Source of the DNA: Candidatus Magnetocorallium paracelense
Lineage (GTDB): Bacteria; Nitrospirota; Thermodesulfovibrionia; Thermodesulfovibrionales; Magnetobacteriaceae
DNA: 64,000 bases
NCBI GenBank assembly: GCA_029001845.1
Contig: JAREWP010000075.1
Location: 1-64,000, forward strand
Direction: 5' to 3'
Shown here: piece by piece, positions 2,076 through 17,836 of the stretch
Position numbering within the stretch: the first letter of the stretch is position 1
Layout: every line of letters starts with the position of its first letter
Translations under genes and position numbers: made by a program
Notes under the pieces: model-generated
Database searches by the model: none
Seen by the model: the letters and a program-made list of their open reading frames with translations, nothing else
Told to the model about the DNA's origin: nothing

Positions 2076-2185
2076 AAAAACGATTTATAATAGTAGGATT
2101 CCTTATTTTTCATGCACAATTTTTTATAACTTGAATGCGCAGGAATTTTCATTTTTTTTATGCAGGTTTGCATGCCATAAACAAA

Positions 2186-2290
2186 AAATGTAGCCGCAGG
2201 CTTCAGCTTGCGCGAACCGTTGGTCAGCCGAACCCGGCGCAGGCTGAAGCCTGTGGCTACATTTAAAGATATCCGCCGAAGGCGTTAAAT
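2186..2290. repeat. Palindromic intergenic repeat, family A copy 1
   Basis: An imperfect inverted repeat begins with TGTAGCCGCAGGCTTCAGC and ends with its complement near 2262. An asymmetric tail, AAAGATATCCGCCGAAGGCG, runs to 2290. The same unit including the tail recurs inverted at 8750-8855 and in shortened form at 40586-40630. Confidence 0.8.
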
Positions 2291-6054: not shown

Positions 6055-6163
6055 ACGGTTTACAGTTTACGGTTAAACAGAATATATTGTATTCATGATT
6101 GAGTGGCGTGGCTGTTAAGGTATGTGTTCGATTTTTTTCTGTAAACTGTTAACCGTAAACCGT
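6055..6163. repeat. Imperfect inverted repeat between convergent genes
   Basis: ACGGTTTACAGTTTACGG at 6055-6072 is mirrored by CTGTAAACTG...CCGTAAACCGT at 6139-6163. The right arm runs into the stop codon of the minus-strand histidine kinase. The TTTACA/TTTACG words recur near 588. Confidence 0.6.
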
Positions 6164-7800
6164 TACCCCCGGTTGTTTAACTCAATAGTAAAGACCGCGC
6201 CCATATCGCCGTTTTCTACATAAAGCTTCCCCCCCATATTGTTTTCGATTATTACTTTGGACATATAAAGACCTATTCCTGTCCCCTTTTTAGTTGTTTT
6301 AGTGGAAAAGTAAGGATCAAATATTTTTTCTATTATTTCTTCCCCTATCCCGCCTCCGTTATCGGTTATCGTGATCCTGATTATTCCCTCTTTCTCCAGA
6401 GAGAGGTTTATCTCTATAAAACCTTTGCTTTCCTTGCTGAGAAACCCCTTTTGCTTTTGATTGGCGATAGCATCTCCGGAATTATTTAAAAGATTTAAAA
6501 CCACATGTTTAAACTCGTTAGGGTAGCCGCTGACTGTCATGTAGCTGAGATCACATGGCCCGATCTCTTCTATATCCTCAGTCATTTTAGACAGTTTATG
6601 GCAACGGCACTTAATTTTTACAAATATCATTCGATTGGCAAGGCTGCATGAAAAAAGCTTTAGGACCTCTTCAATCGCCACTTTGATGTCAAAGGACGAT
6701 TTCTGTTTACTGGGGACAAAAAAACTTCTGAAATCGTCGATCGTATGTGACATATATCCTGTTTGCAGCATTATTTTATCAACGCTTTCCTTTATATAAC
6801 TTTCATCTGCTTCATGATATTCATATGCATCCATGATATCCTGAGCTATTGCACTGACAGCATTCAGAGGTTGTTTCCACTGATGAGCAATGACGTTTAT
6901 CATCTCACCCATGGCAGCCATCTTGGACTGCTGAATCAATAACTCTTCTTTTTGTCTCCGAATTCTGACTTCCTCTTCTACTCTTTTAACGAGATTGTCA
7001 TTCAACTCCCGAAGCTTCCTGTTCGTTGCTCTCAGCTCGTTCGTTTTTTCTCTTATTTCATTGTTTAAATTCTCATTCCAGTTGGCGATCCTGTTATGAA
7101 GTCTTGCAAGAGTAATCATCTGGCCAACAAAATTGGAAAGCAAAAGCATAAGGTTGATAATATTCGCATCAAAGGCCTCGATAAAGGGGTGGCTGAAATT
7201 AATGACGCCTATCGTTCCTTCGTCGTTCTTCACCGGTATGGAAAGTATGGACGAAATATTCACTGATTTATTAAACTGTTTAAATCTTTTGTCTTCTTTC
7301 ACATCGGCAATAAAAATGTGCTCTCCAGTTTGAACCACCTTTCCCGCTATCCCTTCTCCAATCTTGATTGTCATTTCCCTCTGCCTGTTCTCATTCTCCA
7401 AAAACCTGTCTCCCCTTCCTCTGCCGGCTACGAGAATGAGATGTTCGCCCTCTTCGTCTTTAAGCATAATGGAGCAGTTTTCGAATTCCAGTTCCTGAGA
7501 GAATACATCGAGAGCGTTTTTACACAGAGCGTCTATCTCCTTTACCTCTCTGCCAATATTACCGACTTTAATGAGCGCCGAAAGCGCTCTGATCGACATC
7601 TCATAGTATCGCTCCGTTCCGTTAAGCGCCTGAAGATATATTTTCGAATAATTCTCAAAGATTTTAACCTTATTACACTCCTCCATAACCTTTTTCGCAA
7701 TTTCACGTTCTTCTTCAGACAGAGCGTTAAGAGGTCCGGGGTTGTATGAGCCCTTGGCAAAGGTGTCTGAAAGCCAGTTATAGAGAGAATGGTCACTCAT
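6163..7800 (-). CDS. GAF-domain sensor histidine kinase
   Basis: Soluble 545-residue histidine kinase. A helical N-terminus is followed by a GAF domain at about 85-235 (KIGEGIAGKVVQTGEHIFIADV is typical). A coiled coil spans about 238-290, then a dimerization/phosphoacceptor domain with H306 in IAHQWKQPLNA and an HATPase domain to the end. The ATPase boxes are intact: N-box EFKHVVLNLLNNSGDA, G1 ITDNGGGI and G2 KGTGIGLYM. No membrane segment is visible, so it senses a cytoplasmic signal through GAF. Its start overlaps the stop of the upstream HDOD gene by 8 nt. No response regulator is adjacent, so the partner is unknown. The HQW-type phosphoacceptor box is shared with the kinase at 14932. Confidence 0.93.
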   Translation of the reverse strand: MSDHSLYNWLSDTFAKGSYNPGPLNALSEEEREIAKKVMEECNKVKIFENYSKIYLQALNGTERYYEMSIRALSALIKVGNIGREVKEIDALCKNALDVFSQELEFENCSIMLKDEEGEHLILVAGRGRGDRFLENENRQREMTIKIGEGIAGKVVQTGEHIFIADVKEDKRFKQFNKSVNISSILSIPVKNDEGTIGVINFSHPFIEAFDANIINLMLLLSNFVGQMITLARLHNRIANWNENLNNEIREKTNELRATNRKLRELNDNLVKRVEEEVRIRRQKEELLIQQSKMAAMGEMINVIAHQWKQPLNAVSAIAQDIMDAYEYHEADESYIKESVDKIMLQTGYMSHTIDDFRSFFVPSKQKSSFDIKVAIEEVLKLFSCSLANRMIFVKIKCRCHKLSKMTEDIEEIGPCDLSYMTVSGYPNEFKHVVLNLLNNSGDAIANQKQKGFLSKESKGFIEINLSLEKEGIIRITITDNGGGIGEEIIEKIFDPYFSTKTTKKGTGIGLYMSKVIIENNMGGKLYVENGDMGAVFTIELNNRG

Positions 7801-8623
7801 CCTTTAAAAACCTTTTTTTTATTTTCAATTCCATTTCGCCGAATTCTTCCTCCTTTATACTCAATATTTCGAGAGCTGTCCGGTCCAGTGGAAAATTAGC
7901 GGATTCGGCTGTGACGCCGACAAAACTACGGGTTACGATGTAATCAGCCAGATGTATGAGAGCTGTCTGTTCTATATGAGATTTTGCCGCAGAAGGTGAG
8001 TGATGGTAGAGTACGGTATTTATGATCTGATCGGGAAGCTTCCATTTATCGGCCAGCCATGCCCCTATCTCCGCATGAGTAACACCGGATGCGCTCATTT
8101 CCGCCTGGTAGAGATTTTTTTGTATCCTAAATTCCTCCATAATCTTTTGTGATATTTCAGGGAAGTAGCTGTCCAGTATTAGAAAACCAATATCATGAAG
8201 TATACCGCTGAGAGAAATATCGTCTATGCCGTCGATTTTTAAAAATTTTCCAAGATAGTCCGAAGTCATGCTCACTGCAAGGGAGTGTTGAAATATCTGT
8301 TCAAAGTTTAAAAATTTCCGGCTTCCCTTTGTCTCAAGCACAGTCATCATGGCGATACCGATTGCAATATTTTTAACGTTTAACAATCCGATCCTTATTA
8401 TCGCCTTTTTGATTGTAGATGTACTGCCTCCGAGCCCGAAAAAAGCTGAATTGGAGAGGCTGAGAATTTTGGCCGTTGTAACAGGATCTTTTCGTATGAT
8501 CTGCTCCAGCTTGCCGGCGGAACTTGAATCATGGCTTATAACACTTAAAATTTTATGTGCAATGCCCGGTATTGTAGGAAGTTTGGTTATTTTTTGAACC
8601 AGAAGCCTGAGGGAATCGTTCAT
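7793..8623 (-). CDS. HDOD-domain signalling protein
   Basis: A single HDOD domain, the catalytically silent relative of HD hydrolases used in bacterial signalling. Family landmarks from the chosen start are LPTIPGIAHKILSVIS, the IIRKDPVTTAKILSLSNSAFFG block, DYLGKFL and ISGILHDIGFLILD-like text, and LADKWKLPDQIINTVLYHH. I chose the ATG at 8623 because homologues begin just before this block. A TTG at 8671 with a GGGAG upstream would add 16 residues, but those lie next to a repeat-like hairpin. The gene overlaps the histidine kinase start, and the two proteins probably share a pathway. Confidence 0.88.
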   Translation of the reverse strand: MNDSLRLLVQKITKLPTIPGIAHKILSVISHDSSSAGKLEQIIRKDPVTTAKILSLSNSAFFGLGGSTSTIKKAIIRIGLLNVKNIAIGIAMMTVLETKGSRKFLNFEQIFQHSLAVSMTSDYLGKFLKIDGIDDISLSGILHDIGFLILDSYFPEISQKIMEEFRIQKNLYQAEMSASGVTHAEIGAWLADKWKLPDQIINTVLYHHSPSAAKSHIEQTALIHLADYIVTRSFVGVTAESANFPLDRTALEILSIKEEEFGEMELKIKKRFLKDE

Positions 8624-8686
8624 TATTAAAGAAATCTTCTTTCCGTCCAAATTAAGCTGCGAAAGCAGCAATTTATCTCTTACTCC

Positions 8687-8749: not shown

Positions 8750-8855
8750 ATTTAACGCCTTCAGCGGATGTCTTTAAATGTAGCCGCAGGCTTCAGCTTG
8801 CGCCCGCGTTCGGCTGACCAACGGTTCGTGCAGGCTAAAGCCTGCGACTACATTT
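8750..8855. repeat. Palindromic intergenic repeat, family A copy 2 (inverted)
   Basis: The reverse complement matches 2186-2290, including the asymmetric TTTAACGCCTTCAGCGGATG side. Flanking bases out to about 8895 also resemble the outside of copy 1. It occupies the gap before the corrinoid operon. Confidence 0.8.
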
Positions 8856-9072
8856 TTTTATCACCTGCAAAGCCGCATTAAAAATAAAAACTCCCGTGCA
8901 TTAAAGTATAACTCCCACACACACAGATTGTAGCACATACTGCCTGGCGTTTAGGCAATGCAAAAAATGGAGACAGGCACATTTCATTTTACCTCAGTTG
9001 GAGGGAATAATACAAAGAAATTTTGTAATTATTAATAAGAGAAAAACGCATCTGTCACAGACAATTTAACCT

Positions 9073-9157: not shown

Positions 9158-9781
9158 ATGAAAAAGTTAATCGATAATTTTATTAATGCTCTTCAATCAA
9201 TGGACAGGCTTGCCGTAAAGAGGCATATCGAAGAGCTGTCCGGGGAGCATAAACCTCTTTGGCTTATAGAAAATTTAATTGCTCCTGCACTTACTGCTTT
9301 AGGAGAAGGATGGGAAAGGGGTGACGTCGCTCTTTCTCAGGTATATATGAGCGGCAGAATTTGTGAGGAGCTTGTCGATTCCATTCTTCCGCCTGCCGAC
9401 AATGAGAGAAAAAATCAGCCTCCAATGGCGATAACCGTGCTTGAAGACTATCATATGCTTGGCAAACGTATTGTATACTCTGTGTTACGGGCAGGGGGCT
9501 TCGAGTTGACGGATTACGGAAGGCTTTCAACAGACGAACTCGTTGACAGAATAAATTCCGACAAACCTGAAGTGGTGCTCATTTCAGTGCTAATGCTGCC
9601 CTCTGCGTTGAAAATCGGAAAGGTAAAAGAGAATATAAATACAAGCACTAAAATAATAGCAGGAGGAGCGCCTTTTATTTTCGATAATGACTTGGGGAAA
9701 GAGGTGGGCGTGGACGAGGTCGGTAAAAACGCGTCGGACGCCATTGATATACTAAATAAACTGTCAAGGGTAAGCTCATAA
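9158..9781 (+). CDS. Corrinoid (B12-binding) methyltransferase-type protein
   Basis: A 207-residue protein with the two-part architecture of methyltransferase corrinoid proteins (MtaC/MtbC type). A helical cap spans about 1-80, then a B12-binding Rossmann domain. The cobalt-ligand motif DxHxxG is present as D97-Y-H99-M-L-G102, followed by the expected S143-V-L and G169-G-A-P. These proteins carry a methyl group on cobalt between two methyltransferases. It is the first gene of a six-gene operon, and its stop shares one base with the ATG of the UroD/MtaA-like gene. No substrate methyltransferase (MtaB type) or RamA-type activase is nearby, so a catabolic role is doubtful. The following three kinases suggest a sensory role, which is inference. 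Confidence 0.9.
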   Translation: MKKLIDNFINALQSMDRLAVKRHIEELSGEHKPLWLIENLIAPALTALGEGWERGDVALSQVYMSGRICEELVDSILPPADNERKNQPPMAITVLEDYHMLGKRIVYSVLRAGGFELTDYGRLSTDELVDRINSDKPEVVLISVLMLPSALKIGKVKENINTSTKIIAGGAPFIFDNDLGKEVGVDEVGKNASDAIDILNKLSRVSS

Positions 9782-10842
9782 TGTCTTCATATACTTCATT
9801 GACACGTGTTTTAACAACTTTAAGTCACAAAGAGCCTGACAGGGTTCCCTTTTTTCTCCTGGTGACCATGCACGGCGCAAAGGAGCTTGGAGTAACGATT
9901 AAGGAGTACTTTTCTAAAGCTGAAAACGTGGTTGAAGGTCAGACCCGCCTCAGAGAAAAATACAGACACGACTGTATCTACTCCTTTTTCTATGCACCCG
10001 TAGAGACAGAGGCTTTTGGAGGTGAAGTAATATACCATGATGACTGCCCTCCTAATTCGGGGATGCCGATTATCTCTTCTGAAAAGGACATAAAAAATCT
10101 TGTCGCTCCCAATGTTTATGACACAAAGTGTTTACTCAAAGTCCTGAAGGCAACTGAGATGCTGAAAGGGCGGACAGGCGACGATGCTCCTTTGATAGGC
10201 GTTGTAATGTCTCCTTTTTCTCTGCCTGTAATGCAAATGGGATTCGATAAATATTTAGAGATCATATATGAAAGACCTGACCTTTTCGATCTGTTGATGA
10301 AAATAAACGAGGATTTCTGTGTTCAATGGGCCAATGCTCAGATAGAAGCAGGTGCAACGGCAATCTGTTATTTTGATCCTCTCTCCTCACCGACAGTGAC
10401 AGATAGAAAAATTTTTCTGAAAACAGGCTTTGAAATCGCCAAACGGACCATAGCACAAATCAAAGGGCCTGTCGCCACTCATCTGGCGTCGGGGAGATGT
10501 CTCCCGATAATCGATGATCTGGTTAAAACCGGAACTGCCGTAGTCGGGACAAGCGCGATGGAAGATATTTCCCTTCTTAAGAATTCATGTCGAGGAAAAC
10601 TTACTGTTCTTGGTAATCTGAACGGCATCGAGATGCGCAGATGGACGTCCGATCAGGCAGAAGAGATTGTAAAAAACACTCTGGCAGGAGCCGGTCACGG
10701 CGGAGGGTTCATACTTTCCGATAATCACGGAGAAATCCCCTGGCAGGTTCCTGACAACGTCTTAATGGCGATTTCCGATGCAGTCCATAAGTGGGGAGTC
10801 TATCCTTTGGATTGGGTAGAGGATTATTACTCAAGTGTATAA
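9781..10842 (+). CDS. UroD/MtaA-family protein, likely partner of the corrinoid protein
   Basis: A 353-residue TIM-barrel protein of the uroporphyrinogen decarboxylase superfamily, in the branch that includes the corrinoid:coenzyme methyltransferases MtaA, MtbA and CmuA. Supporting text is LTRVLTTLSHKEPDRVPFF at the N-terminus, CYFDPLSSPT near 196, and LTVLGNLNGIEM near 274. In zinc methyltransferases of the family an HxCG motif binds zinc; here the position reads H234-L-A-S-G-R-C240, so the usual cysteine is alanine. The late cysteine is also replaced, by SDNHGEIPW near 313. The protein may therefore bind metal differently or not transfer methyl to a thiol. It overlaps its neighbours by 1 nt upstream and 8 nt downstream. 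Heme biosynthesis is unlikely given the context. Confidence 0.85.
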   Translation: MSSYTSLTRVLTTLSHKEPDRVPFFLLVTMHGAKELGVTIKEYFSKAENVVEGQTRLREKYRHDCIYSFFYAPVETEAFGGEVIYHDDCPPNSGMPIISSEKDIKNLVAPNVYDTKCLLKVLKATEMLKGRTGDDAPLIGVVMSPFSLPVMQMGFDKYLEIIYERPDLFDLLMKINEDFCVQWANAQIEAGATAICYFDPLSSPTVTDRKIFLKTGFEIAKRTIAQIKGPVATHLASGRCLPIIDDLVKTGTAVVGTSAMEDISLLKNSCRGKLTVLGNLNGIEMRRWTSDQAEEIVKNTLAGAGHGGGFILSDNHGEIPWQVPDNVLMAISDAVHKWGVYPLDWVEDYYSSV

Positions 10843-12697
10843 TCATTTATTAATGGTTTGTGACAACTTTGTCGATGAAATTGCTTCACTGAACCTTGAT
10901 TCGGACTTTGAGGGAATCGTTACAGCCTCCTTTCCCGCCCATTGCGGTATTCCTTCCATCTCATCCAGTAAACTGACCGATGTCATCAGGGAATATGATG
11001 GTGCTTATACCTGCTGCGATGTCTTTAGCGGCTCTTGCATTTATACAAACGATGGAGTCAATTTACAGGACTGCACCCTTACCAGACTGCCACAGTGTTT
11101 TTATCTGTTTGCAAACCACAAAATTATTGACGGATATCTTGAAAAGGGGGCCTACCTTTTAACACCCGGATGGCTGGGAAAGTGGAGAGATAAAATCGGC
11201 GCCATGGGGTTTGATCAGGAGCAGGCTCGTGAATTTTATGGCGAATCGATCAAAAGGCTTACTTTGCTGAATACGGGAGTAGGCGTCGATACATACGATA
11301 ATTTTTCCGATTTTGCGAATTTTCTGAACCTGCCGACCGATGTCGTACCTGTTGGCACAGAATACTTTCGTTTGTTTCTGACCAATTTTATTTTACAAAG
11401 AAAGCTCTCAGTCAATGAAAAAAGGAACAAAAAAGACTTATTGCACGAGAGGGAGAAATCATCAGGGTATGCAACAGCCATAGATCTTCTGAATACGCTG
11501 GCCCTCACAAAAAATGAGCCTAAAGTAATCCGACATATCATGGATGTCTTTAAAATGCTCTTTTCTCCCGGAAAACTCTTTTTTTTACCCCTCTATAATG
11601 GAAAACCCGGAGAAATCATCTCTGCACAGGATTCCAAATCTTTTAATACAAACATTGCGGAGAGTCTTGCCGTTTTTAATAAAGAATACCAACATACCTT
11701 ATCGGGCGCCGGTTTTCGCCTTTCCTTAAAAAACAGGGATGAAGTACTTGCCGTTATGGAAATAGACGATATCGCATTCCCCCAATACCTGGAGCCTTAC
11801 CTGAATATGGCTCTTAATATAGTGAATGTGTGTGCAATGGCCCTGGACAATGCCCGTGTCTATGAAAAACTATATATGCAAAACGCAGAGATAGTTGCTC
11901 AAAACAATCACTTACAGGAAACGCTCGACGAATTGCGTCTTACGCAACAACAGCTCATAGAAGCCGAAAAAATGGCCTATTTGGGAAACCTGGTGGCGGA
12001 AGTGGCCCATGAGATCAACACCCCTGTAGGAGTTGGCATAACCGCTGCCTCTGGTCTGACGGAAAAAACAAAAACCCTGGACGGCCTTTTCGGGGAGAAA
12101 AAAATGAAACGCTCCGATCTGGAGAGCTACCTCCTTTTTGCAGATAAAGCAGGCGCTCTCATCCTGAACAATCTGCAAAGAACCGCAGAACTGGTTAAAA
12201 GTTTCAAACAGGTTGCAGTCGATCAGGCCTGTGAAGAAAAAAGGCGCTTTCATTTTAGAAGTCACATACAAAAAATCATAGACTCACTTGAGCCGAAATT
12301 AAACTCGAAAAATATTATGATAAATCTCGATTGTGAAGAGCAAATAGAGATAGAGAGTTGTCCCGGACTATATGCGAAAATTTTTTCCAACTTGCTGCTT
12401 AATTCCTTTATTCACGGTTTTTCCGGCAGGGACAAGGGATATATAAATATAGATGTTGAATTTGTTAACAATACTCTCCACATAAGCTACAGGGACAACG
12501 GCTGCGGCATACCTGAGGATTTCCTGCCGCGAATATTCGATCCCTTTTTCACCACAGATAAGCAGACAGGCTCCGGACTCGGTATGCACATCGTGTATAA
12601 TATCATTATTCAAAAATTGAATGGCGTCATTAACTGTAACAGCGAACAAGGAAAAGGCGTATTATTTAATATCAATATTCCTATGAGCGAAATATAG
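10835..12697 (+). CDS. Histidine kinase with DUF1638-like N-terminal domain and GAF
   Basis: A 620-residue soluble histidine kinase. Residues 1-190 resemble DUF1638, a cysteine-rich domain of unknown function found with corrinoid methyltransferase genes. Seven cysteines lie in the first 90 residues (C9, C37, C60, C61, C68, C80, C88), and the family-like ending GAYLLTPGWLGKW is at 105-117. A divergent GAF domain covers about 205-345 and a coiled coil 345-380. Then comes the kinase core with H392 in AEVAHEINTPVGV, N-box SNLLLNSFIHGF, G1 YRDNGCGIP and G2 GSGLGMHIV. The start overlaps the UroD-like gene by 8 nt. Fusing a corrinoid-associated domain to a kinase suggests it reads the state of the upstream protein pair. 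The DUF1638 assignment comes from remembered motifs. Confidence 0.85.
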   Translation: MYNHLLMVCDNFVDEIASLNLDSDFEGIVTASFPAHCGIPSISSSKLTDVIREYDGAYTCCDVFSGSCIYTNDGVNLQDCTLTRLPQCFYLFANHKIIDGYLEKGAYLLTPGWLGKWRDKIGAMGFDQEQAREFYGESIKRLTLLNTGVGVDTYDNFSDFANFLNLPTDVVPVGTEYFRLFLTNFILQRKLSVNEKRNKKDLLHEREKSSGYATAIDLLNTLALTKNEPKVIRHIMDVFKMLFSPGKLFFLPLYNGKPGEIISAQDSKSFNTNIAESLAVFNKEYQHTLSGAGFRLSLKNRDEVLAVMEIDDIAFPQYLEPYLNMALNIVNVCAMALDNARVYEKLYMQNAEIVAQNNHLQETLDELRLTQQQLIEAEKMAYLGNLVAEVAHEINTPVGVGITAASGLTEKTKTLDGLFGEKKMKRSDLESYLLFADKAGALILNNLQRTAELVKSFKQVAVDQACEEKRRFHFRSHIQKIIDSLEPKLNSKNIMINLDCEEQIEIESCPGLYAKIFSNLLLNSFIHGFSGRDKGYINIDVEFVNNTLHISYRDNGCGIPEDFLPRIFDPFFTTDKQTGSGLGMHIVYNIIIQKLNGVINCNSEQGKGVLFNINIPMSEI

Positions 12698-12699
12698 AA

Positions 12700-14865
12700 A
12701 TGTTTGATTCCGATATAGAAGATATCTTTGCCGAAGAGGATCCCGTCGATTCCTCGAAAAAACCTGAATCATGGAAAATTTTGGTAGTTGATGATGACGA
12801 AGACGTACATACAGTCACTCATCTCTCTCTTGAAGATGTCGTTTTTAAAGATAAATCAATAGAGATACTGGACGCCTATTCTGCGCAAGAGGGAATGAAT
12901 ATCTTTCGTGAGCAACAGGATATCGCCCTGATACTCTTGGATGTTGTGATGGAGGCTTACACCTCAGGACTCGATTTGATTAAATTTATACGTGAAGAGC
13001 TGAAAAACAATATCGTCAGAATAGTCCTGAGAACCGGTCAGCCCGGATACGCCCCTGAGAAAAAGGTAATGCTCGATTACGAGATAGACGATTACAAGAC
13101 AAAAACCGAATTGACTCACGACCATTTGTTTACAGTGGTTATTTCCAATCTTCGTTCATATAATGCTCTTAAAAGACTTGATGAATATAACAGGAGACTG
13201 GAAAACATGGTGGAAGAGAAGGTCGGGGAACTAAAAAGAATTAATTCCTATCTCCAAAAGGCGGAAGAGGAATTAAGACGGTCTAACATCCAATTGGAAC
13301 TGCGAGTGAAAGAAAGAACTGTTGAGCTTATAGAAGCCAACAAAAAACTCCGTGAAGCTCAACGCATTGCACGTCTTGGAAGTTGGGAGTGGGACATAGA
13401 AAAAAATACATTCAAATGCTCCAATGAAATATGCAGTATATTCGGTTTAAAAGGACAAGAGTATAAAGCAACTTATGATACTTTTCTAAATGCCATGCAT
13501 CCTGAAGATATGGCCTATGTAAAAAAAACCGTAAATAATGCTTTAAATAACAGCACCCCATATTCTATGGACTATCGAATCATATTGCCGGACAACTCAA
13601 TCTGTTTTGCCCATGAGGAAGGGAAGGTCTTTTGCGATGAAAAGGGAAATCCGATACGAATGATAGGAACGGTTAATGATGTGACTGCCATCAGGAAAGC
13701 TCATATAAAAATCGAAGAAGAGATCAGGTATCGTTTACATATAGAAGACAGTCTGGTCCTGTTATCAAGAACATTCGCAGCGACAGAAAGTCCTGACTTT
13801 TCGAAAACTCTTGTTTTTTTAAGAGACCTCTTTAAAATACATAATGCATGGATATTTATTTTTAATGGTGATGACGCTTGCGTGAGGAAAATGTATTCTA
13901 TCGGTGAGGGAGAAAAGAATCAGCCGGAGAATTTTCAAGAACAAAGAAATCATTTCCCCTGGTTTTATAAAAGAGTCATGCAACTTGAAAACATCGTAAT
14001 ATACGATACCGATAACATGTTGGAGGAAGCCGGGAGGGAAAAGCAATTTCTATTAACTCACAATGTAAAATCTTTCTTAGGTGTTCCCATTAACATTAGC
14101 AGAGACAGGATTTACGGATTTACGGCAATAGGATCAATCGACAGAGGTCATGATTGGTCTAAAGAGAATTTACGAGTACTCCGTATTGTTAATGAAATGA
14201 TGGCGAATTATTTTAATAGAAAGGAATCACAGGAAGAGATTATAAGACGTCTTGGAGAAAAAGAGGTGCTTCTAAAGGAAATCCATCACCGGGTTAAAAA
14301 TAATCTGCAGCTGGTTACTTCTTTGCTCTATCTTCAATCAACAAGGATAACTAACAAGGAAGTAAAAGAGATTCTTAATGAGAGTCAAAACCGAATACAA
14401 TCAATGGCAATCATTCATGAAAAACTCTATCAATCGGAAAACTTCGCGAGCATTAATGTCAGAGACTATTTTGAAGAATTAAGTAGTATGCTTTTTAATA
14501 CATATAGAGATAAATTAGGGGTTGTAAACTTAAAGTTAAGTATTGATAACATACAGATTGGCATTACGCAGGCAATTCCCTGTGGATTGATTATAAACGA
14601 GCTGATATCCAACTCCTTGAAATATGCATTCTCCAATATAGATAAGCAACAGGGAGAGATTGAGATTCGTATGACACAAAACAAGAATGAAAAAAAGTAT
14701 ACTTTAGTCGTCAAAGATAATGGAATCGGTTTCCCTGAAGAGATAGACTTTAGAAAAGCAAAATCATTGGGAATGACACTTTTAACAGCACTTTCCACAA
14801 AACAACTCAGAGGGAACATAGAACTTAATAATACAAATGGAACAGAGTTTATCATTGTTTTCTAA
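12700..14865 (+). CDS. REC-PAS-GAF histidine kinase of the HisKA_2 type
   Basis: A 721-residue cytoplasmic kinase that begins with a receiver. The REC domain (about 25-155) has acidic residues in VVDDDEDVH and phosphoacceptor D81. It is the variant, with RTGQPGYAPEKKV and DDYKTKTELT, that usually precedes DUF3369 regions. A coiled coil covers about 160-215, a PAS domain 222-340 (RIARLGSWEWDIEKN) and a GAF domain about 350-510. The HisKA_2 phosphoacceptor EIHHRVKNNLQ has H530 next to R531, and an HATPase domain with VKDNGIGFP closes the protein. It begins 2 nt after the preceding kinase. The receiver could take phosphate from the DUF1638-like kinase and control this kinase's output. Its first 155 residues are nearly duplicated in the next gene. 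Confidence 0.92.
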   Translation: MFDSDIEDIFAEEDPVDSSKKPESWKILVVDDDEDVHTVTHLSLEDVVFKDKSIEILDAYSAQEGMNIFREQQDIALILLDVVMEAYTSGLDLIKFIREELKNNIVRIVLRTGQPGYAPEKKVMLDYEIDDYKTKTELTHDHLFTVVISNLRSYNALKRLDEYNRRLENMVEEKVGELKRINSYLQKAEEELRRSNIQLELRVKERTVELIEANKKLREAQRIARLGSWEWDIEKNTFKCSNEICSIFGLKGQEYKATYDTFLNAMHPEDMAYVKKTVNNALNNSTPYSMDYRIILPDNSICFAHEEGKVFCDEKGNPIRMIGTVNDVTAIRKAHIKIEEEIRYRLHIEDSLVLLSRTFAATESPDFSKTLVFLRDLFKIHNAWIFIFNGDDACVRKMYSIGEGEKNQPENFQEQRNHFPWFYKRVMQLENIVIYDTDNMLEEAGREKQFLLTHNVKSFLGVPINISRDRIYGFTAIGSIDRGHDWSKENLRVLRIVNEMMANYFNRKESQEEIIRRLGEKEVLLKEIHHRVKNNLQLVTSLLYLQSTRITNKEVKEILNESQNRIQSMAIIHEKLYQSENFASINVRDYFEELSSMLFNTYRDKLGVVNLKLSIDNIQIGITQAIPCGLIINELISNSLKYAFSNIDKQQGEIEIRMTQNKNEKKYTLVVKDNGIGFPEEIDFRKAKSLGMTLLTALSTKQLRGNIELNNTNGTEFIIVF

Positions 14866-14931
14866 AGAGGCGGCAAAAAAATGCTCTTCCACAAATCCTT
14901 CATTTTATATGAACACTGAAAAAATATAAAC

Positions 14932-16233
14932 ATGTCCGCTTTCGATATAGAAGAAATTTTTGCAGAAGAGAATTCCGTCGATTCCTCGAATAAATCTGAA
15001 TCGTGGAAAATTCTGGTAGTCGACGATGACGAAGACGTACATACAGTCACTCATCTTTCTTTAGATGATGTCGTCTTTAAAAAAAAATCGATAGAGATAC
15101 TGGACGCCTATTCTGCTCAAGAGGGGATGAACATCTTTCGTGAGCAACAGGATATTGCTCTGATACTCCTGGATGTTGTGATGGAAGCCTACTCCTCAGG
15201 ACTCGATTTAATTAAGTTTATACGTGAAGACTTGAAAAACAATATCGTCCGTATCGTACTGAGAACCGGTCAGCCCGGATACGCCCCGGAGAAAAAGGTA
15301 ATTCTCGATTACGAGATAGATGATTACAGAACAAAAACCGAATTGACTCACGAACATTTGTTTACATTGGTCATTTCCAATCTTCGTTCATATAATGCTT
15401 TTAAAAGACTTGATGAATACGGCAGGAGACTTGAAGATATGGTGGAGGAAAAAACAAAGGAACTAAAAAAAATCAATTCCGATCTTCAAAGCGAGAAGGA
15501 AAAACGTATGGAAAAGGAGATGATGTTAATGCAGCAGTCCAGGCTGGCTTCTGTTGGGGAGATGATAGCAGCGATCGCTCATCAGTGGAGACAGCCTTTG
15601 AATGCCGTGGGCCTCGTTATTCAGGATCTGAAAGACGCCTATGTTCATAATGAATTTACAGCGGAATATCTCTATAAGGCTGTAAACAAAAGCATGACGC
15701 AGCTTAATTACATGTCAAATACAATCAATGACTTCAAGAACTTTTTTAAGCCCTCAAAGACAGAGAGTCTCTTTAAACCCGATCAAGCGATAAAGGACTC
15801 TCTATCCATCATTTCTGCTCAACTAAAAAATAATTTTATCAAAATCGACTATCAAAACAAAGCAATGAAGGAGACACTTATTAGGGGTTATCCCAGCGAA
15901 TTCGCACAGGTCATAATCAATATATTGAACAATGCCAGAGACGCCATTCTCGATGCAAGGGAAAAAGGAACCTTATCGAGGAACGAGGGAGAGATCGCTA
16001 TTGAGATGTATAATAATGACAAAGGCACGGTTATCGACATAAGTGACGATGCAGGTGAGATTCCTGATCAGATATTAAATAGAATATTCGATCCCTACTT
16101 TACAACAAAGGAATCGCACAAAGGAACGGGAATAGGATTATATGTAGCAAAAACGATAATAGAGACCAATATGGGCGGAAAGCTTTTAGTGGAAAACAGA
16201 GAAGGAAGCGTGACTTTTACAATTGAACTGTGA
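14932..16233 (+). CDS. REC-histidine kinase with duplicated receiver
   Basis: A 433-residue protein with a receiver at 25-155 (phosphoacceptor D81) that is nearly identical to that of the preceding gene. A coiled coil covers about 155-200, followed by a HisKA domain with H217 in IAHQWRQPLNA and an HATPase domain. The N-box EFAQVIINILNNARDA and G2 KGTGIGLYV are normal. The G1 box reads SDDAGEIP instead of the usual DNGGGI, so two of its glycines are replaced and ATP binding may be weak. It begins 66 nt after the previous stop with no strong ribosome site. The pair looks like a branch or sink in one phosphorelay. No DNA-binding response regulator occurs in the operon. Confidence 0.9.
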   Translation: MSAFDIEEIFAEENSVDSSNKSESWKILVVDDDEDVHTVTHLSLDDVVFKKKSIEILDAYSAQEGMNIFREQQDIALILLDVVMEAYSSGLDLIKFIREDLKNNIVRIVLRTGQPGYAPEKKVILDYEIDDYRTKTELTHEHLFTLVISNLRSYNAFKRLDEYGRRLEDMVEEKTKELKKINSDLQSEKEKRMEKEMMLMQQSRLASVGEMIAAIAHQWRQPLNAVGLVIQDLKDAYVHNEFTAEYLYKAVNKSMTQLNYMSNTINDFKNFFKPSKTESLFKPDQAIKDSLSIISAQLKNNFIKIDYQNKAMKETLIRGYPSEFAQVIINILNNARDAILDAREKGTLSRNEGEIAIEMYNNDKGTVIDISDDAGEIPDQILNRIFDPYFTTKESHKGTGIGLYVAKTIIETNMGGKLLVENREGSVTFTIEL

Positions 16234-16261
16234 ACATGACTGTCTGTGGTACGTACGATAA

Positions 16262-17836
16262 TTGAAAAACAGTATTCAGTCGGAAATTCAATCTTGGTTT
16301 AATCACATTTATGAAAAGAAGTCTCTAAACTATCTGAGACCTCCCGAAGCGTATTCTGTCTTTCTTGATCTCATGAAGCCGGTTAAAGGTTGCGCCATGC
16401 TGGATGTAGCCTGTGGTCCCGGATTGTTGCTGAAAGAGGCATCCAAAAGAGAACTCACAGCTTACGGAGTGGATATCTCCGATAAAGCCTTGGCAATGTC
16501 TCACGATATCGCTCCCGAAGCAAATGTGTTTATCGGAAATGCCGAGAGCCTTCCTTTCAGAGCGGAGAGCTTCGATTATATTACCTGCATAGGATCACTG
16601 GAGAGAATAATCGATCTCCGAGCGGCGCTGAAGGAGCAGCTGAGAGTCGCCGCGCCGAATGCGCTTTTTTGTTTTATGACTCGAAATTCCCATACATTTA
16701 CATGGCAGGTATTTATGAGATTACTAAGGCTTAGAAACCGCAGAGCCCGTCAAAACGCCGCAAGCCTCGGTAAGTGGAAAAGCGTTTTTCATGATCAGGG
16801 ATTCAAGATATTACGTATAATTCCCGATCAATGGCCTCTTATAAAAAGAAATCGTCTTTGGGAAAAAATCGGCTTCACTGGAAAAAAAAATGGCCTACTA
16901 AAGGGCGTATTACCCCTTAGATTTTCAAATGAGTTTATTTTTCTTCTAAAAAGAGCATCCAAAGATGAAGCTGAGAATCGTAAAGGCGCCGGCGAATTGT
17001 ACGACTACTTATCAAAATATATGTATTTGATGAATCTTATTTCGCCGGCAGTCGGAACTTCACCGCCTGTTCACAAAAGACTGCGCCTTCAGGGAACGGG
17101 ACGGCTAAAGGCAATAGATTCCGGGGTGATTGTAAATACAGACCGCTGGATATCGAGACAATTGGATATTCCCGACAAAGAGATAAATGTCCTTGACACA
17201 GGATGCGGATTCGGCTCGACACTCTTTGAAATCAGTAAGACTATCAAAGGCCGATTCGAAGGCCTGTCGACCAGTCCCTTTCAGATAGAAAAGGCCTCGA
17301 ATTTCGCCAAAGGACTTGGAGCCGTCGACAAATTCAAATTTTGCTGCCAAAGCTATGACGAACCATTAGAGAAAAAATATGACTTAATTATTTCAGTCGA
17401 ATCACTTATCCACTCAAAAGATCTACAGTCAACAATAAAGAATATCGCCTCTGCTTTGAGACCGGGAGGCGTATTCATGGTGCTTGAGGATATGGCCACC
17501 CATAATGCAGACATGGAAACAGGCGAGGCTGAGGCTTTCAAACTTGCCTGGAGTCTTTATAGTATCTACACAGTCGATGACTTTACATCCGCCATCTCTT
17601 CGGCAGAACTTGAGATCGTAGAAAAACGCGACCTCACATACATGACGCCACACAGGAGCCTCGCAACTCTGAACCTGCTTTTAAGAGTATTCTCAACCCT
17701 TACGCCATCTCCTCGCTTCCGACCATTAAGACACCTGCACCGCGCTTTTTATGGAGGATTTATACTTGAATCGTTTTATGCGAAAAAAATGTTCCACTAC
17801 ATCTTTTTAAAGGCCAGGAAAAATATTGCATCCTGA
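16262..17836 (+). CDS. Tandem class I SAM-dependent methyltransferase protein
   Basis: A 524-residue protein with two Rossmann-type methyltransferase domains. The first has LDVACGPGLL at residues 47-56 and YGVDIS near 68-73. The second has VLDTGCGFGS at 310-319 and later SVESLIHSKD and LRPGGVFMVLEDM. The two differ: the first resembles UbiE/type-11 enzymes, while the second resembles small-molecule C/O-methyltransferases. The linker, about 235-305, has no recognisable domain. The start is a TTG 28 nt after the previous stop with no clear Shine-Dalgarno sequence, so it is uncertain. As last gene of the corrinoid/kinase operon it could make or consume the methyl-related signal. Substrate unknown. 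Confidence 0.8.
   Translation: MKNSIQSEIQSWFNHIYEKKSLNYLRPPEAYSVFLDLMKPVKGCAMLDVACGPGLLLKEASKRELTAYGVDISDKALAMSHDIAPEANVFIGNAESLPFRAESFDYITCIGSLERIIDLRAALKEQLRVAAPNALFCFMTRNSHTFTWQVFMRLLRLRNRRARQNAASLGKWKSVFHDQGFKILRIIPDQWPLIKRNRLWEKIGFTGKKNGLLKGVLPLRFSNEFIFLLKRASKDEAENRKGAGELYDYLSKYMYLMNLISPAVGTSPPVHKRLRLQGTGRLKAIDSGVIVNTDRWISRQLDIPDKEINVLDTGCGFGSTLFEISKTIKGRFEGLSTSPFQIEKASNFAKGLGAVDKFKFCCQSYDEPLEKKYDLIISVESLIHSKDLQSTIKNIASALRPGGVFMVLEDMATHNADMETGEAEAFKLAWSLYSIYTVDDFTSAISSAELEIVEKRDLTYMTPHRSLATLNLLLRVFSTLTPSPRFRPLRHLHRAFYGGFILESFYAKKMFHYIFLKARKNIAS

Follow-up and report, generated by a model that had tools for sequence, protein, structure and literature searches.

Organization of the operon

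The window analysed here (64,000 nucleotides [nt] of Candidatus Magnetocorallium paracelense, contig JAREWP010000075.1) carries on its + strand an operon of six genes. The first three of these genes, encoding a corrinoid protein, a UroD-like protein and a DUF1638-GAF-kinase, form a conserved signalling module rather than a chance neighbourhood. Gene 1 (9158..9781) encodes a corrinoid protein of 207 amino acids (aa) in which Pfam recognizes a B12-binding_2 cap (PF02607) and a Rossmann B12-binding domain (PF02310). Gene 2 (9781..10842) encodes a TIM-barrel protein of the UroD/MtaA superfamily (353 aa), assigned by Pfam, alignment and phylogeny to a sensory clade termed type 1. Gene 3 (10835..12697, GTG start), defined from Pfam and an AlphaFold2 model, encodes a DUF1638-GAF-HisKA-HATPase sensor kinase of 620 aa. 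The Pfam assignments of the remaining genes are a REC-PAS-GAF-HisKA_2-HATPase kinase (gene 4, 12700..14865, 721 aa), a REC-HisKA-HATPase kinase (gene 5, 14932..16233, 433 aa) and a tandem S-adenosylmethionine-dependent methyltransferase with two domains (gene 6, 16262..17836, 524 aa, TTG start). Successive genes are spaced by -1, -8, +2, +66 and +28 nt, and Pfam identified no MttB or RamA gene among the six. An earlier note on this DNA had described six genes with gaps of -8 to 66 nt, encoding a corrinoid protein, a UroD/MtaA-family protein, a kinase with a DUF1638-like domain, two receiver-first kinases and a tandem methyltransferase; the coordinates of the open reading frames (ORFs) and the Pfam matches agree with that layout, to which the GAF domain of gene 3 is an addition.

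The operon kinases are histidine kinases, with HisKA/HATPase domains bearing H and G boxes; the HisKA match of gene 3 scored 17.4 bits, below its own cut-off of 26.9, and its H-box (AHEINTP) is present. HisKA/HATPase kinases with receiver domains and H and G boxes are also the components of two-component phosphorelays, from which this module differs by its three-part corrinoid input.

Conservation of the three-gene module

The UroD alignment (A1) was used to scan 84,980 species genomes; of the 201 relatives obtained, the best 80, with 59-73% identity to the window UroD, were taken as loci. Statements about whole genomes are based on family searches of those genomes. The bacterial hosts belong to Desulfobacterota, Chloroflexi, Bacteroidetes, Beta- and Gammaproteobacteria, Nitrospirota, Spirochaetes, Riflebacteria, Aminicenantes and Nitrospinota, and two archaeal metagenome-assembled genomes were found among these best 80 of 201 relatives. 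Typically, the corrinoid gene is followed by the UroD gene, usually with an overlap of 4 nt, and then by a DUF1638-GAF-output gene. This order was kept in the 80 loci, across many phyla; co-occurrence of the first three genes was the check proposed in the earlier note. Considering 83 UroD genes, we found an adjacent corrinoid gene in 77 cases, a signalling domain in 73 and DUF1638 in 54. Immediately behind UroD, 73 of 78 loci have a gene with DUF1638 and/or a signalling domain, versus 47 of 504 background genes; this ratio is descriptive, since close relatives do not count as independent cases. At the other five loci, UroD was split, the ORFs were short, or the genes were unassigned or reversed. 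The profile scan left the UroD of one locus (L062) unassigned. Within the Candidatus Magnetobacterium family, to which the window belongs, the corrinoid/UroD pair precedes a DUF1638-GAF-GGDEF or GAF-kinase gene at five loci (L010, L012, L013, L014 and L016). The sensory linkage can be taken as a firm genomic fact.

The proteins behind the pair vary in their outputs. Pfam identified DUF1638 in 47, HATPase in 43 and GGDEF in seven of the 64 gene-3 counterparts, and REC in 36 and HATPase in 31 of 67 other operon proteins, many of which also contain PAS; receivers like that of gene 4 turn up again in other module operons. At one locus (L171), the pair is followed by a DUF1638-PAS-HD-GYP fusion. 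The output domain after DUF1638 is, therefore, swappable between histidine kinase, GGDEF and HD-GYP; such a swap behind a constant input is predicted for a sensory module, but not for an enzyme. MttB and RACo were absent from the 25 families listed for the other operon proteins, a list that could miss families represented no more than twice, and MtaB was likewise not among the families listed for the operon genes. The pattern that would have told against a sensory role, a pair always accompanied by substrate methyltransferases and unlinked to kinases, is the opposite of what was observed: the close homologues are linked to kinase or GGDEF genes, which supports the sensory reading of the earlier note.

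Three further loci were recorded. At L011 (1551-2600), a frameshift, real or due to assembly, divides the module UroD between two ORFs of 183 and 135 aa. L015 (4459-6129) encodes a stand-alone GAF-kinase akin to gene 3, and its genome (G006) has a corrinoid-UroD pair elsewhere. An apparent UroD-DUF1638 fusion at L085 was not used, both proteins being truncated at the join or end.

Sister operons and genome context

Related operons contain the same components in other arrangements. In type 2 operons (L129 from Desulfocicer vacuolatum, L149, L150 and L151), the corrinoid and UroD genes are followed by a free DUF1638 gene and a histidine kinase gene, and L151 has a RamA gene upstream. Type 3 operons (L152-L154) have the order corrinoid-UroD-DUF1638-RamA/RACo-histidine kinase, with an additional NtrC-type regulator in L153 and L154. 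In a further sample of 16 UroD loci chosen by UroD similarity alone, histidine kinase or GAF genes immediately followed either the pair or a RamA gene at 10 loci (L177, L179, L180, L181, L182, L184, L185, L187, L189 and L191), the other six being without. The RamA absence reported in the earlier note, together with that of MtaB-type genes, is correct for this operon, but does not extend to the wider family, as RamA/RACo genes occur in sister kinase-linked operons, including Nitrospirota operons that have a RamA of their own and, in several cases, an NtrC-type regulator. Given the known role of RamA, its presence inside kinase operons suggests a Co(I) cycle and hence methyl transfer; by this analogy, it argues that the corrinoid may cycle through Co(I), with sensing by methyl transfer. 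Five Nitrospirota operons (L181, L182, L184, L187 and L189) have the order corrinoid-UroD-RamA/RACo-histidine kinase, with DUF1638 undetected, and apparently represent another offshoot of this signalling scheme.

The genome of the window encodes only two PF01208 proteins, HemE and gene 2, with no other MtaA-like protein; it has two RACo relatives elsewhere and one DUF1638, and the family search found no MttB. MttB was missing from nine of the 12 module genomes tested, this one included. The gene-2-type UroD was the only PF01208 protein found in five genomes, including the complete 8-Mb genome of Desulfonema magnum, and no RACo relative was found in four module genomes. The lack of MttB in the window's own genome, the sole UroD of Desulfonema magnum and the four genomes without RACo indicate that the module needs no catabolic methyltransferase set. 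A catabolic corrinoid methyltransferase operon was rejected as an identification, as no MttB/MtmB type is linked in the window operon or among the listed families of the relatives' operons, and the genome itself lacks MttB.

These data bear on whether the genes might form an ordinary corrinoid methyltransferase set with methyl flux as its main function, local kinases merely regulating it or another pathway and the DUF1638-kinase providing feedback. The gene families are indeed enzyme families, and random DUF1638 loci in Desulfobacterota mostly occur with corrinoid and RACo genes and without kinases: the majority of 20 sampled loci look metabolic, three (L171, L172 and L173) having a corrinoid or UroD gene, then DUF1638, then an HD-GYP or histidine kinase output (at L173, with the corrinoid gene unresolved). 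We nevertheless consider such a set quite unlikely, given the lack of substrate methyltransferases among the families listed for module operons and of MttB from most module genomes tested, the separation of the UroD clade from the MtaA and RamA-linked clades, and the exchange of outputs.

The corrinoid protein

Gene 1 matched PF02607 (44.3 bits) and PF02310 (51.3 bits), both over the cut-off, and contains the DxHxxG lower-ligand motif (D97/H99/G102), in which H99 and G102 are each 99% and D97 95% conserved. This combination of a cap and a B12 domain with DxHxxG is that of corrinoid methyltransferase proteins; the score against TIGR02370 was 68 bits, below the curated cut-off of 215.3. The cap residue W52 occupies the position at which methyl-type corrinoid proteins have Phe, and Trp accounts for 82 of the 84 residues of this column. 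The B12 photoreceptors CarH and photocobilins are characterized by a W-(10)x-EH motif (PMC10979010), the Glu-His pair of which is replaced by V62/Y63 in gene 1. Judged by these residues, the putative pocket is different from those of both methyl-type and photoreceptor proteins. Gene 1 was not, therefore, assigned to CarH/photocobilins: W52 is present, but the EH pair is missing.

The module does share with CarH and photocobilins (PMC10979010) a B12-binding domain as sensory input, a cap-domain Trp and, sometimes, a fusion to a GGDEF output. Unlike them, it has no EH motif and no globin/bilin or DNA-binding domain, its corrinoid protein is separate from the effector, and it has a UroD partner. 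A light sensor, in which photolysis of adenosyl- or methylcobalamin on the corrinoid protein would be read by DUF1638-GAF, would fit the GxxW of CarH-type proteins and the presence of the photocobilin AbPcob (8j2y) among the PDB matches of gene 1. It is, however, very unlikely, in view of the missing Glu-His pair, the lack of a role for a UroD partner in known B12 photoreceptors and the many hosts that are anoxic sediment bacteria.

The UroD-like protein

Gene 2 belongs to the UroD superfamily (PF01208, 184.9 bits, gathering cut-off 23.9), but its scores fell below the curated cut-offs for MtaA (91.6 versus 400 bits), mtaA_cmuA (92.8 versus 235.4), MtbA (66.7 versus 600) and HemE (53.8 versus 302.95). 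The HemE arginine motif MRQAGR is not present, TMHGAKELG being found in its place, and the closest solved structure is MtaA. At the zinc site, H234 is kept, whereas the Cys ligands of MtaA are replaced by A236 and D314-N315-H316-G-E318. Within the type 1 clade, Ala replaces the first zinc Cys in 96% of sequences and D-N-H-G-E is found at the second with 96-99% conservation; the MtaA controls in the alignment keep both Cys positions (LHIC, GCGI). A His-Cys-Cys site marks the S-methyltransferases of the superfamily, and O-methyltransferases replace one or both Cys (Kountz and Balskus, PMC10418091). The loss of this site makes a thiol acceptor, such as coenzyme M, unlikely as a partner of gene 2; an O- or N-linked methyl donor would be compatible with the altered site, the O-type being one possibility. 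The pocket residues at the predicted barrel ends (H31, E77, D199, H234, D314, H316 and E318) are 95-99% conserved. Gene 2 was, accordingly, excluded from MtaA/MtbA by its scores and the lost His-Cys-Cys site, and from HemE by its score and the missing arginine motif.

In the UroD tree, type 1 formed a single clade (support 100/97), joined with the kinase-linked type 2 (99/96); the two lay apart from MtaA, HemE and RamA-linked UroDs, with some rows long-branched. Within Nitrospirota, type 1 matches had 61-72% identity and the next UroDs no more than 30%, leaving a wide gap. The earlier note had named a tetrapyrrole as a possible signal, which would make the UroD-like protein a binder of uroporphyrinogen or a heme precursor, with the corrinoid protein delivering a related signal. 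Only the family name of PF01208 speaks for this sensor, and we abandon it as extremely improbable, because the HemE motif is missing, the score is far under the HemE cut-off, a true HemE is encoded elsewhere in the genome and MtaA is the closest solved relative.

MtaA/MtbA and MtaC/MtbC of methylotrophic methanogenesis likewise combine a UroD-fold methyltransferase with an MtbC/MttC-like corrinoid protein containing DxHxxG, but the module scores far below the corresponding curated cut-offs (UroD 92-112 versus 235-400 bits; corrinoid protein 68 versus 215) and differs by having no His-Cys-Cys zinc site, no substrate methyltransferase, and a kinase fusion and linkage. The type 1 mlp clusters (Kountz and Balskus, PMC10418091) also bring MtaA-like proteins and a corrinoid protein together outside methanogens. 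They have three Mlps, Ram/RACE and His-Cys-Cys sites, whereas the module has only one UroD, in which this site is altered, together with DUF1638 and kinases; neither “sensor” nor “histidine kinase” occurs in that paper (PMC10418091). Membership of these clusters was rejected, the operon having one UroD and no RACo.

The DUF1638-GAF region of gene 3

The DUF1638 domain of gene 3 (aa 1-179, 10835..11371), delimited by Pfam, alignment and model, scored 43.5 bits against PF07796 (gathering cut-off 27), and its conserved residues include C9, C37, C68, C88, E15 and T147. In the AlphaFold2 model of gene 3 (pLDDT 93.5), this alpha/beta domain is followed by a signalling helix and then by a GAF domain, from which a coiled coil leads into the kinase. 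The GAF domain with its flanking signalling helices (about aa 196-364, 11420..11926) gave Z values of about 13 to solved GAF domains. DUF1638 modelled alone (pLDDT 93.6) had zero Foldseek matches at E ≤ 0.001 and a best VIA Z of 5.8 over about 80 residues, with no clear relative among solved structures.

The free DUF1638 protein of Phaeobacter is required with a split B12-dependent methionine synthase, and its presence tracks that of a RamA-like protein (PMC5764234); the role of such free relatives in corrinoid-dependent methionine synthesis is probably reactivation. In the Phaeobacter inhibens set of split methionine synthase, DUF1638 and RamA-like protein (PMC5764234) and in the glycine betaine MtgC set (PMC12478193), DUF1638 works with a stand-alone corrinoid protein, as in the module; it is free and metabolic there, but fused here to a GAF-kinase, GGDEF or HD-GYP. 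In a Desulfobacterota locus (L161:5740-8676), DUF1638 is fused to hydantoinase-A-type domains in a 978-aa protein adjoining UroD and corrinoid genes, and proteins of like length (950-985 aa) are present in G064, G395 and G479.

The four conserved Cys of DUF1638 would suit a redox or gas sensor, in which an unmethylated corrinoid would report redox, oxygen, sulfide or NO to DUF1638-GAF through its cobalt state (Co(I)/Co(II)/Co(III)) or upper ligand, with the UroD-like protein as a structural gate. The lack of RACo from four module genomes, the predominance of hosts from redox-gradient sediments and the loss of MtaA-type zinc ligands point in the same direction. By contrast, the UroD pocket is more conserved than a gate needs, and RamA, expected for a Co(I) catalytic cycle, occurs in sister operons. 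We judge this sensor unlikely.

A proposed sensing mechanism

At the level of sequence, the module is composed of a corrinoid protein with the His-on motif, a UroD-like protein that is neither MtaA nor HemE, and a DUF1638-GAF region fused to a kinase, in conserved order. It is probable that these constitute an input module for signal transduction derived from corrinoid methyltransferases. The UroD-like protein would transfer a methyl (or other alkyl) group between the Co(I) centre of the corrinoid protein and a small molecule. DUF1638, docked on the corrinoid protein, would distinguish its methyl-Co(III), Co(II) and Co(I) states, and the reading would be relayed by the GAF domain and the coiled coil; the output is a histidine kinase in this operon and GGDEF or HD-GYP elsewhere. 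The receiver domains of kinases 4 and 5 may then accept phosphate from gene 3. We infer that this methyl-corrinoid mechanism is the best supported, with redox reading of the corrinoid as its main rival.

Several observations weigh against it. The 80 loci were found with the clade of the window UroD, so part of the linkage reflects shared descent, and the clearest exception to the linkage is an orphan type 1 UroD (L190:6709-7779), which adjoins ABC-transporter-like genes and has neither a corrinoid nor a kinase gene as a neighbour. In having W52, the corrinoid protein is closer to CarH and photocobilins than to methyl carriers; the UroD pocket, though conserved, could lack catalytic activity; and the four genomes lacking a RACo relative would have to rely on DUF1638 for Co(I) regeneration.

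The known roles of corrinoid methyltransferases are enzymatic and lie in methylotrophy, acetogenesis and methionine synthesis. In the open-access literature on DUF1638, corrinoid proteins with kinases or diguanylate cyclases, and MsmS, we found no description of the module, which is apparently a two-component/cyclic di-GMP (c-di-GMP) signalling system with an input lacking precedent there. More tentatively, it may represent a new class of catalytic sensors shared by bacteria and archaea: a methyl-transfer cycle dedicated to sensing and based on a corrinoid (UroD-like protein, corrinoid protein, DUF1638 and sometimes its own RamA) would gauge a methylated compound, or cobamide methylation or redox state, and write to phosphorelays or c-di-GMP. 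Such re-use in signalling would account for many UroD and cobalamin-binding genes that carry enzyme annotations, give DUF1638 a concrete, testable role as a reader of corrinoid state and suggest a way in which microbes of sediments might sense methylated compounds or the redox state of cobamides. The histidine kinase/GGDEF/HD-GYP swap makes the idea directly testable, and the module suggests widespread, apparently undescribed microbial sensing through B12 chemistry.

Other features of the operon and its surroundings

Genes 4 and 5 share a duplicated 559-bp receiver-coil region (12700-13258 and 14932-15490; 88% DNA identity), and their kinase halves are unlike (HisKA_2 versus HisKA) despite this duplication. 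Gene 6, which the earlier note had counted as part of the set, is co-directional with the operon, but no relative was found in other module loci; it is thus probably a passenger rather than a module member.

Rfam gave zero matches at gathering scores over the whole window, and thus no cobalamin riboswitch was detected; the promoter scan revealed no excess (19 versus 21.1 in shuffles), and the terminator scan yielded 11 versus 7.8 in shuffles. The nearest gene upstream of the operon is a divergent HDOD gene, and the 486 bp between them contain a dispersed repeat. The divergent pair on the - strand (6163-7800 and 7793-8671) encodes an HDOD protein and a GAF histidine kinase, with an 8-nt overlap. 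A palindromic element of about 100 bp lies upstream of the operon (8760-8858), with a second copy in the window (2183-2280); about 40 copies, of 75-94% identity, are scattered over the genome.

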